Shown here piece by piece: positions 24,028-27,143 of a stretch of 29,597 nucleotides of DNA. Positions within the stretch are counted from its first letter, which is position 1. Every line of letters begins with the position of its first letter. A program made the position numbers and the translations under genes. The DNA comes from a virus, in IMG/VR virus record IMGVR_UViG_3300027600_000006, positions 1 to 29,597 of that record; one strand, given 5' to 3'. A model generated the notes under the pieces. The model made no database searches and had not been told where the DNA came from. It was given only the letters and a program-made list of their open reading frames with translations.

Positions 24028-24272
24028 TAGCATTTCCAAGCCCGCAGGCTTTTGTTAATCCTAGAGTTCGGGTCTTTCGCTGTTTTTGCGGATGTCAACT
24101 TCTTTTTCATCCCCTCCATGCGAGCGCAGAAAGAGTCTTTCCTTGATCCGCCTTCTGGTTGCGGCGGTTTCAAGTTCATCCCTTGCTTTTTCGCGGAGGC
24201 TCGGCCCTTGGCATTCAAGCCACCGCTGGGGTTCTTGCCTTCTTTGCGTTGCCATGCTGGTGACTTAGCCAT
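24027..24272 (-). CDS. Small basic conserved phage protein (DUF6321-like; 81 aa)
   Basis: The ATG lies within the last codons of the glycosyltransferase gene (8-base overlap). The product begins MAKSPAWQRKEGKNPSGGLN, then AKGRASAKKQG and SFCARMEGMKKKLTSAKTAK, ending RINKSLRAWKC. I recognise the PAWQRKEGKNP.GGLN pattern and the FCARM.GM segment as a conserved phage family of unknown function, probably the one called DUF6321. It is very basic, with Cys at the end. Possibly packaged with DNA; unproven. Confidence 0.87.
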   Translation of the reverse strand: MAKSPAWQRKEGKNPSGGLNAKGRASAKKQGMNLKPPQPEGGSRKDSFCARMEGMKKKLTSAKTAKDPNSRINKSLRAWKC

Positions 24273-25014
24273 TTACAACTTTCAATACCGGTGTGCAGTG
24301 CTCTTTTAGTAGCGGCTGCAGCACATCTTCCTCAAAGTTTCGTGTGAACTTTTCTTGTCCAACGTGAGGAAGACTGATTGATGGGTCAAGGAAAACCGTA
24401 AAACCATCTTCGGTTGCACGATCACAAAAAAGGTAATCTTCGCCGTAGTACTCACCGTTCACAATCTTTAGATCAAAGATGGCGTGATCTGTTCGGTTGT
24501 CTACATTATTGTCGTATGCCCACTCTGGGTGGTTTGCAATCATTGTCTCGATAACATGGCGTTGGATCATCATGAATCCTGTGCCAATACGCTTCACGCG
24601 AAGCAAGCCGTTCTTATCAAACTCAAGAGCGCCATTTTCATCAAGGTGATAGTCAAGGAAGAACTTGCGATCCATGCCACGGCGAGGATAGATACCAGCC
24701 GTAATGTCTTTGTCAAGACTCAGCGCAAATAACCGGAGTATTGCATCAGCTGTAACAACAACATCTGCATCAACAAACAGAAGTGTGTCTGCGTCAGATT
24801 TTAAAAAGTCAGCAACCAAGCAGTTGCGGGCTTTTGTAATAAGGGAGCACCCCGAGAGGTGCGTAAGATAAAGCTTAATCCCCAACGGCTGAACCTTAAC
24901 GGCCAGATTGGACAACGCAAAAGCCGAATCAATGTTCAGCTTCCCGTCGTAAGCTGGGATCGCAACCATAAGTTTGCGCCCAACTAGATTAATGCTTTTC
25001 TCGGTATCAGCCAT
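24265..25014 (-). CDS. GT-A family glycosyltransferase
   Basis: This enzyme would transfer a sugar from a nucleotide donor. Visible features are the first strand and loop (RKLMVAIPAYDGKLN, 13-27), the helix ITKARNCLVADFLKS, and the metal/nucleotide DxD motif at Asp82-Ala-Asp84 in LLFVDADVVV. Also present are GTGFMMIQRHVIETM and the acidic GEDYLFCDRATEDGF with a candidate catalytic acid. It is about 249 residues with no TM, which fits a soluble GT2-like domain. It overlaps the preceding virion gene by eight bases and the next by eight, so it is made with head and neck proteins. Likely targets are a virion protein or a host surface glycan, by inference. Confidence 0.88.
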   Translation of the reverse strand: MADTEKSINLVGRKLMVAIPAYDGKLNIDSAFALSNLAVKVQPLGIKLYLTHLSGCSLITKARNCLVADFLKSDADTLLFVDADVVVTADAILRLFALSLDKDITAGIYPRRGMDRKFFLDYHLDENGALEFDKNGLLRVKRIGTGFMMIQRHVIETMIANHPEWAYDNNVDNRTDHAIFDLKIVNGEYYGEDYLFCDRATEDGFTVFLDPSISLPHVGQEKFTRNFEEDVLQPLLKEHCTPVLKVVNG

Positions 25015-25557: not shown

Positions 25558-26061
25558 TTACTGTTGGTTTGCGGGTGGGTTAGCGTTACCGCTAGAGTCG
25601 CGCACAATGTATTGAACAGTAACAGTAATCGTACCGGCAGTAGCGTCAGCAGTGGCTGCGGTAAAAGTACCATAAACAATTGCATCAGTTGTGCCAATGC
25701 TGTCATAAAGACCTGAAGTGGCCGCTGCAATAGTTGCTGGAGAAGTTTGAACTGCTGAAGTGCCGGTATTGACAGAAGCCATATACAGGTTAGCCGTTCC
25801 AGCGCTACCAATAGTAACGCCACAGTTAGTCGCGCCAGTCAGGGCGACATTAACTTCAAGACCAAAAGAAATAATCTTAGCGCCAGCAGGAAGCACAAAC
25901 ATTTGTTGTGCAGCAGGAGTTGCCAAAATGACGGAAGTGGGGGCCGTATAAGTCTGGGCAACGATAGTTGCGCCCATATTACGGATGGTGCCAGCAGTAG
26001 TGCCGGTTGTGTTTTTGACAGTACCCAATAACCACGGGCCTAAGTGAGTTGCGAATCCCAT
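25558..26061 (-). CDS. Beta-rich virion protein (167 aa)
   Basis: I start at the ATG at 26061 (MGFATHLGPWLLGTVKNTTG) because AAAGGAG lies just upstream; the longer frame to 26103 runs into the structured leader. The product is Thr/Ala/Gly-rich, with strands such as QTYTAPTSVILATPAAQQMF and PAGAKIISFGLEVNVALTGA. Its end has ITVTVQYIVRDSSGNANPP. It is the first gene of the transcript starting downstream of the capsid terminator. A decoration, head-fibre or neck protein is inferred; no named family is recognised. Confidence 0.85.
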   Translation of the reverse strand: MGFATHLGPWLLGTVKNTTGTTAGTIRNMGATIVAQTYTAPTSVILATPAAQQMFVLPAGAKIISFGLEVNVALTGATNCGVTIGSAGTANLYMASVNTGTSAVQTSPATIAAATSGLYDSIGTTDAIVYGTFTAATADATAGTITVTVQYIVRDSSGNANPPANQQ

Positions 26062-26145
26062 GAGGATCTCCTTTATGCACAAGTCCCTGTACCATCTGTG
26101 CATCGTCCACTAGGCTGGCTGGTACAGGTATAAATTCCTAGACTT
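26062..26145 (-). promoter_or_regulatory. Structured leader RNA with interleaved inverted repeats
   Basis: The leader of the downstream transcript holds a perfect 9-base inverted repeat (CCTGTACCA and TGGTACAGG on the minus strand; plus-strand arms 26120-26128 and 26086-26094). A perfect 7-base repeat (ATGCACA and TGTGCAT) has one arm inside the first loop. Its other arm ends right before the AAAGGAG site. A 5-base pair CTAGG/CCTAG (26137-26141 with 26110-26114) adds a third helix. The 9- and 7-base helices interleave as alternatives or a pseudoknot. The site suggests control of ribosome access; no known riboswitch class is recognised. Confidence 0.6.
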
Positions 26146-26150
26146 GTTTG

Positions 26151-26179
26151 AATATACACGATTAAATGAATATTCACAA
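26151..26179 (-). promoter_or_regulatory. Sigma70-like promoter for the neck/tail operon
   Basis: On the minus strand TTGTGA (26179-26174) and TATATT (26156-26151) are separated by exactly 17 bases. They match the -35 box at 4 of 6 positions and the -10 box at 5 of 6. Transcription would start near 26144, giving a leader of about 83 bases. The surrounding AT-rich patch contains the palindrome TGAATATTCA, overlapping the -35 end. It lies directly behind the capsid-gene terminator. Confidence 0.65.
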
Positions 26180-26189
26180 TGTTCTAAAC

Positions 26190-26216
26190 AAAAAAAGGGG
26201 GCTTGTGACCCCCTTT
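26190..26216 (-). terminator. Rho-independent terminator after the major capsid gene
   Basis: On the minus strand AAAGGGGG, a seven-base loop and CCCCCTTT form an eight-pair stem, followed by an uninterrupted seven-T run (complement of 26190-26196). It begins 12 bases after the capsid stop codon. The opposite strand lacks a good T run, so it acts mainly on the minus strand. Confidence 0.92.
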
Positions 26217-26228
26217 CTTATTTGCCTA

Positions 26229-27143
26229 TTAAGCGCCGGCAGAGCCGTACATGCCGAGAGGGTCAGACCAGCCGAAGCTGTAACGCTCGCGAGACTTGTA
26301 ACGGACGTTACCAGTGTCAAAATCACCGTCCATAGACTGTGACAGGGGGGTACGCACAAAGTGCTTCATGCCGTTAGGAACGTCTGTGGTCAAGAACCAA
26401 GCGTTTGTGTCAGTCAAGAAGTGGTTTACAGCATATCCATCAGGGATAGAACCGTTGTTCTTCAATGCGTTGATATCGTTATCGGTAGTACCGACGCGCA
26501 ACTCAGTCTCTAAGAGGCGAGTAGCAACGAACATCAATGATGGAGGAACGATCAGCTTCTTAGGCTTTGATGCGATCAACAGTCCACGCTCATCAGTCCA
26601 CAAGGAGATCTGAATAACGGCGGCTTCCAAAGAAGTCTCGTTCAAATCAGCTGCGGTAGATGGGATGTTGCTGTTAACGCCACCAGTGATCAAGGGATGT
26701 GAAGCACTAAACAAAGGCACACCATCTCCACCGTAATAAGCGGCAGAATTAGTAAAACCATTATTCAATGTTGCAGCAGCCTTAACTTGCTTGGTGTAAG
26801 CCATAGCACGGGCCAATGCCTTGGTGTAGCGAGCAGACAAGCTGTCGTACAAGTTGTCTTCGATGGCCTCTTCGGTAAGCGAAAAACCCAAAGCGATGGT
26901 TTCGTGGTTGTAGCGAGCTGTCCATGCTTCTTGAGCATTGTCATAAGCGATGGCTGAACCCTCGTTCTTGACAGGAGCTGCTGAGAAACCAGACAGTTTT
27001 GTTTCCTCTTCAAAGCTACGCTCAGATGTCTCTGTTTCGTAGATCTCTTTGTGCTCTTCGCCATATTTGGCGTACTCAAGACCGAACAATGCATTAAGTC
27101 CGGGGAGCAACTCTTTAAGTAGTTGTGCGCGTGAAATTGCCAT
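26229..27143 (-). CDS. Major capsid protein (Mu gpT-like/HK97-type fold)
   Basis: AAGGAG precedes the ATG. The 304-residue product has an N-terminal helix (LLKELLPGLNALFGLEY), an extended arm with charged residues (about 30-60), and the core YNHETIALGFSLTEEAIEDN. The conserved-looking GDGVPLFSASHPLITGG and LIASKPKKLIVPPSLMFVAT follow, with VNHFLTDTNAWFLTTDVPNG near 235-255. The SASHP and PP...AT segments are typical of the Mu-like gpT major head subunit group. It ends just before the terminator and lies after scaffold and decoration genes, as expected for a highly expressed capsid subunit. There is no protease-dependent delta domain of HK97 length. Confidence 0.92.
   Translation of the reverse strand: MAISRAQLLKELLPGLNALFGLEYAKYGEEHKEIYETETSERSFEEETKLSGFSAAPVKNEGSAIAYDNAQEAWTARYNHETIALGFSLTEEAIEDNLYDSLSARYTKALARAMAYTKQVKAAATLNNGFTNSAAYYGGDGVPLFSASHPLITGGVNSNIPSTAADLNETSLEAAVIQISLWTDERGLLIASKPKKLIVPPSLMFVATRLLETELRVGTTDNDINALKNNGSIPDGYAVNHFLTDTNAWFLTTDVPNGMKHFVRTPLSQSMDGDFDTGNVRYKSRERYSFGWSDPLGMYGSAGA

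Follow-up and report, generated by a model that had tools for sequence, protein, structure and literature searches.

A double-pseudoknotted 5' leader, probably cis-acting, at the ribosome-binding site of phage capsid cement genes

The window, i.e. the whole stretch of DNA that was analysed, is a 29,597-nt (29.6-kb) virus record of IMG/VR (IMGVR_UViG_3300027600_000006). On its minus strand, a leader (26062-26145) is located between genes for a Mu gpT-like major capsid protein and a capsid cement/decoration protein, the latter starting with an ATG at 26059-26061 (minus strand; Table 1). The minus strand is the strand of the element; the original prediction, which had been made from the sequence alone, gave none. 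Transcription in the window is predicted to start near 26144 (minus strand) from a sigma-70-like promoter (TTGTGA-17-TATATT). A terminator-like hairpin, for which the scan gave a score for the plus strand only, is located upstream of this promoter and thus fits the capsid transcript, not attenuation; a terminator or attenuator reading of the leader was rejected on this ground. A 14-nt direct repeat at 26149-26180 (86% identical, also an imperfect inverted repeat) overlaps the predicted promoter and may be fortuitous or mark a regulator site. The gene at 24265-25014, a short distance beyond the cement gene in the downstream direction, shows a weak glycosyltransferase match (phrog_12406, E 2e-6) and also matches phrog_1574 (function unknown).

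Table 1. Features of the leader and its flanking genes, listed 5' to 3' on the minus strand; positions are those of the window.
Feature	Position	Strand	Evidence
Mu gpT-like major capsid protein gene (upstream)	26229..27143	-	phrog_371, E 7e-22; Pfam Phage_capsid_4, Mu-like_gpT
Terminator-like hairpin of the capsid transcript, GGGGG/CCCCC then T7	26190..26219	-	Inverted repeat; T7 by reading the sequence
-35-like hexamer TTGTGA	26174..26179	-	With the -10 hexamer, 9/12 consensus matches, 17-nt spacer
-10-like hexamer TATATT	26151..26156	-	Promoter scan; relatives with a -10 box before P1
P1 5' arm CTAGG	26137..26141	-	Covariation; four-helix parse
P3 5' arm CCTGTACCA	26120..26128	-	Inverted repeat; covariation
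P2 5' arm CCA	26116..26118	-	Four-helix parse; 100% of cells paired in relatives
P1 3' arm CCTAG, in P2 loop and within P3 loop	26110..26114	-	Covariation; parse
P2 3' arm TGG	26107..26109	-	Covariation; four-helix parse
P4 5' arm ATGCACA, within P3 loop	26097..26103	-	Inverted repeat; covariation
P3 3' arm TGGTACAGG	26086..26094	-	Inverted repeat; covariation
P4 3' arm TGTGCAT, abutting the Shine-Dalgarno	26075..26081	-	Inverted repeat; SD-P4 spacing in relatives
Shine-Dalgarno AAAGGAG	26068..26074	-	Sequence; 6 nt before ATG
Capsid cement/decoration protein gene, 167 aa (downstream)	25558..26061	-	Family profile matches; aligns to the DSL-LC04 cement protein

The leader is ~75-80 nt in length and consists of four helices (P1-P4), with its 3' end at the ribosome-binding site. 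The elements are arranged in the order P1a-P3a-P2a-P1b-P2b-P4a-P3b-P4b-SD-ATG, so that P3 is crossed by P1 and P4 by P3, a double-pseudoknot topology. Three of the helices are the perfect complementary pairs of 9, 7 and 5 bases that the original prediction had listed within ~80 bases and that are all exact in the window sequence: the 9-base pair is P3, the 5-base pair is P1, and the 7-base pair, which indeed has one arm in the loop of the 9-base pair and the other against AAAGGAG, is P4. To these is added P2, absent from that list, a small 3-bp helix (CCA/TGG) that clamps the 3' arm of P1.

The four-helix score of the window was 61.5, compared with a maximum of 51.5 among 300 dinucleotide shuffles, as given by a parser that was devised after the family had been seen and whose thresholds are not independent of it. 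The free energy of the nested fold is unremarkable (z -1.6), as pseudoknots are beyond the reach of such a fold and the energy minimum of the window also relies on a 7-bp helix (26079-26085/26141-26147) that is absent in the near-identical relative L002. Single-sequence folding, blind to the pseudoknots and misled by this non-conserved helix, was rejected as a guide to the structure.

Relatives were gathered in three ways, i.e. by homology of the capsid protein, by homology of the downstream protein, and by the DNA pattern of the core. In an alignment of 41 leaders, pairing is kept in 96.3% of cells, and changes on both sides occur at 19 of the 22 pairs; sliding the partner arm, as a control, reduced pairing to 23-40%. 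A covariance model (R1, with rough E-values) was built from P2 and P3 only, and its alignment was therefore not fitted to P1 or P4. In the alignment of 68 leaders, 94.9% of cells are paired, 21 of 22 pairs contain double changes, and double-change cells number 384 versus 97 in shuffles, which were not tree-aware. The P3 pairs include 37 G-U cells versus one A-C cell, an excess suggesting that it is the sense strand that functions. On the capsid-protein tree of 175 loci, the pair type of two P1 pairs changes at least 21 and at least 15 times, a part of which could be accounted for by leader recombination. Comparison of the relatives shows that compensatory changes in the sense strand preserve the four helices. 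The structured leader ending at the ribosome-binding site, as originally proposed, is thus conserved and strongly covarying, with both the repeats and compensating changes found in the relatives.

The proposal that the helices form alternative hairpins held only in part. The conserved form is mainly the double pseudoknot, with P1, P3, and P4 each kept in 90-97% of cells. In most leaders, the 5' arm of P1 has an alternative in a short local hairpin (P0), which is not clearly present in the window; 80% of P0 cells are paired, but neither the counts of pairs nor those of pair types exceed shuffles. The doubt raised in the original prediction about a strained full pseudoknot was fair: the P3-P4 linker measures 4-6 nt in 179 of 197 leaders and P3 mostly has 10 bp. 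With so short a linker over ~10 bp, the outer P3 pairs may have to open and compete with P4, and the helices may be unable to form in full all at once.

A full four-helix parse was obtained in 257 of 281 capsid-homologue loci with enough downstream sequence, representing 197 distinct leaders, and a full parse of any kind was found in only 25 of 591 shuffled leaders. All but one of the distinct real leaders (196/197) score at or above the 99% level of shuffles that were not tree-aware. Because the 281 loci include some picked by RNA core or cement protein, the fairest prevalence is that of R1 matches among 81 sources (the window and 80 loci picked by capsid homology), namely 69/81; several of the misses are cut off at a contig end or too divergent for the model. 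Cultured carriers include Pelagibacter phage HTVC023P (E 1.8e-7), and the element was also found in phage DSL-LC04 (E 0.003). In the cultured pelagiphage HTVC027P and in phage 023Pt_psg01, where none of 300 shuffles scored as well as the four-helix parse, the element sits one or two small genes further downstream. The full four-helix parse was not found in the Caulobacter and Alcaligenes relatives. The leader of Synechococcus phage MinM2 (L280:1570-1634) contains in the same place a 9-bp stem (GACCCGGGG/CCCCGGGTC) and, covering the SD, a 7-bp CCGTCTC/GAGACGG pair; the two resemble P3 and P4 on visual inspection, but equal scores were reached by 12 of 300 shuffles, and MinM2 was therefore not counted as a member.

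Of the 26 phage records with a match, 25 contain a single copy of the element. The exception (locus L311, record G001, 65 kb) carries a leader behind each of two distinct capsid loci and is possibly a chimeric assembly or two joined phages. The capsid gene is located upstream in 104 of 118 core matches in IMG/VR, and 13 of the remaining 14 lie <1 kb from a contig end. As an insertion hotspot, the interval that separates the leader from the capsid gene has taken up genes encoding HNH-like and GIY-YIG endonucleases and, in some cases, GNAT acetyltransferases (seen in L078, L079, L020, L121, L133, L161, L167, L212, L037, L254, and L265). One of these intervals also contains an abiF RNA (RF03085, 45.5 bits) at L079:1798-1835, near an HNH-like gene. 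Where such genes split the capsid gene from the leader, the leader remains with the cement gene. This constant company across intervening genes identifies the element as a 5' leader, and a 3' element of the capsid gene was ruled out.

The profile of the downstream family in the window matches solved cement/decoration proteins (7eel, E 5e-4; 8cjz, E 0.004; 7dn2, E 0.011), and the family can be aligned to the protein annotated as cement in phage DSL-LC04; by these sequence-profile similarities, the gene product is identified as a capsid cement/decoration protein. Cement proteins of at least four families (31, 11, 4, and 3 distinct cases) are encoded behind the same leader core. In L002, the leader is nearly identical to that of the window, yet the downstream protein is only 45% identical. 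Cement proteins (e.g. those of L281 and L066) look mosaic: their N-terminal stretches are alike (STFxGP...; hhalign 93% across the first 37 columns), and the bodies that follow differ.

A scan of Rfam 15 with the leaders of the window and the scanned relatives gave no family matches, only chance matches being obtained at permissive E-values, and the absence of a known riboswitch, originally judged by eye, was borne out by this comparison. The RNA Mu-gpT-DE (RF03012), which was reportedly defined in a NAR paper, occupies the same site, in that it follows a Mu gpT-like capsid gene and runs up to the SD/ATG of the gene behind it, and the window leader likewise lies downstream of such a capsid gene and ends at the next gene start. 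Both RNAs have a CAG/CUG-AC hairpin core and a helix involving the SD. Mu-gpT-DE is shorter (53 positions versus 91 in the window-type leader), and its outer CCUG/CAGG helix encloses everything, including a CAGcc/ggCUG hairpin, without P1 or P4 of the window type; no such enclosing arrangement is found in the covarying P1-P4 helices. The Rfam and ZWD versions of Mu-gpT-DE differ, according to a passage in PMC7657543. Against the window, RF03012 reached at best 9.1 bits (E 0.65), below the gathering score of 49 bits, which none of the relatives carrying the P1-P4 leader reached either. Roseobacter phages CRP-901 and CRP-902 pass this model with 72.3 bits, and CRP-902 gives no four-helix parse. 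From the 9-bit score and the differing topology, we conclude that the window leader does not belong to Mu-gpT-DE, and a common origin of the two is possible. In CRP-902 (L283:5201-5253) and CRP-901 (L286), Mu-gpT-DE is located directly upstream of a cement-like gene, suggesting that it is also a 5' leader rather than a capsid 3' element.

Other known RNAs resemble the leader in part. The preQ1-II and SAM-II riboswitches are compact, pseudoknotted, and SD-sequestering, and share with it a pseudoknot helix at or over the SD; the window leader differs in topology, in having no Rfam match, and in lacking a metabolic gene context. HDV-like ribozymes have a double-pseudoknot topology, with a G at the cleavage site opening P1. 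The likeness extends to P2, which flanks the 3' arm of P1 as P1.1 does, and to an NGA-type joint before the next helix. In the present leaders, however, P1 nearly always begins with C, not G (CCGGG, CTGGG, CTAGG, and similar), P4 is not a local hairpin, and the predicted transcript already begins at P1; an HDV-like ribozyme was rejected on the P1 sequence and the lack of an Rfam match. The T4 gene 32 leader contains a single H-type pseudoknot bound by its own gene product, gp32, in autogenous control. The likeness lies in a 5' leader pseudoknot before a phage gene that is strongly expressed and reportedly controlled at translation (PMC3014915, PMC535899), whereas the pseudoknot found here is double, reaches the SD, and has one core common to different cement families.

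A -10 box (5-6/6 matches) precedes P1 by 7-10 nt in 169 of 197 leaders, and from this fixed distance the predicted transcription start is ~2-4 nt upstream of P1. Measured from the end of P4, the first base of the SD falls at -6 to +2 nt in 184 of 197 leaders; in most members the SD itself is outside P4, starting 1 nt after it, and in L035, L044, and L083 P4 pairs with the SD itself, as read by eye. With the SD at or in P4, a closed P4 should hinder 30S binding. We consider it probable that the element is a cis-acting, double-pseudoknotted 5' leader that controls translation of the cement gene, and probably also mRNA stability, in a large phage group whose capsid proteins are Mu gpT-like; translational control is most likely, judging from the position of P4. 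Of the two roles that the original prediction had offered, anatomy thus favours translation control, and a metabolite or protein sensor is possible. Transcription would start 2-4 nt before P1 from the element's own sigma-70-type promoter, and the nascent 5' arm could first fold as P0 and would then be captured by P1 when the P2 loop emerges. P3 and P4 would close last, setting the SD against or inside P4; translation would then depend on the opening of P4, and the compact 5' end would probably shield the mRNA from decay. Candidate openers of P4 are the initiating ribosome, the conserved capsid protein, a host factor, and a small molecule. Different cement families follow near-identical cores; this speaks against autoregulation and makes a generic factor a better candidate than the downstream protein.

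The leader might instead act mainly as an mRNA stabiliser, its compact 5' end blocking 5'-end-dependent decay of an abundant late message with no switching and little effect on translation. The predicted transcript start 2-4 nt before P1 agrees with this, a start close to a structured 5' end being the geometry of known 5' stabilisers of the ompA type, and cement proteins are required in hundreds of copies; this reading is nevertheless unlikely, as a plain hairpin would suffice and the conserved link between P4 and the SD and the double pseudoknot are left unexplained. A bolder reading, to which we give similarly little credence, is that an undescribed RNA family, widespread among abundant phages of sea and fresh water, acts here as a two-state switch (P0 versus P1-P4) that senses a late-infection signal, such as the capsid protein or a metabolite, and gates cement translation.

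Less likely again is a protein operator, in which the leader would be bound by the capsid protein, or by a part common to the cement proteins, and the cement gene repressed until capsids are assembled. Almost always the leader has the capsid protein gene as its conserved neighbour, and protein-bound pseudoknots in phage leaders exist, such as that of T4 gene 32 (PMC3014915, PMC535899); as to the downstream protein as the ligand, near-identical cores before different cement families, and in one case a near-identical leader before a protein of only 45% identity, stand against it. A riboswitch that responds to a metabolite or ion and sets the timing of cement production to suit the condition of the cell under infection is improbable. 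The complex fold, the helix at the SD, the competing 5' hairpin P0 in most leaders, and a handful of unpaired bases that hardly vary (A-C on either side of P2, G-A ahead of the P3 3' arm) would suit it, but these bases are few for a ligand pocket, the leader occurs in a single gene context, the named relatives stem from quite different hosts, and no Rfam riboswitch matches.

The best reading of these comparisons is a new family of cis-acting 5' leaders before capsid-cement genes that is absent from Rfam 15. Our search of openly accessible papers found no description of the leader, and a prior description elsewhere, e.g. in subscription papers or the ZWD alignments, is possible. Pseudoknotted 5' leaders touching the ribosome-binding site are a known kind of regulator, and what is unusual here is the double-pseudoknot build. 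The leader is near-universal in the sampled phage group and is carried by hundreds of related water-borne phages. How phages match the supply of cement protein to that of capsids becomes a directly testable question.
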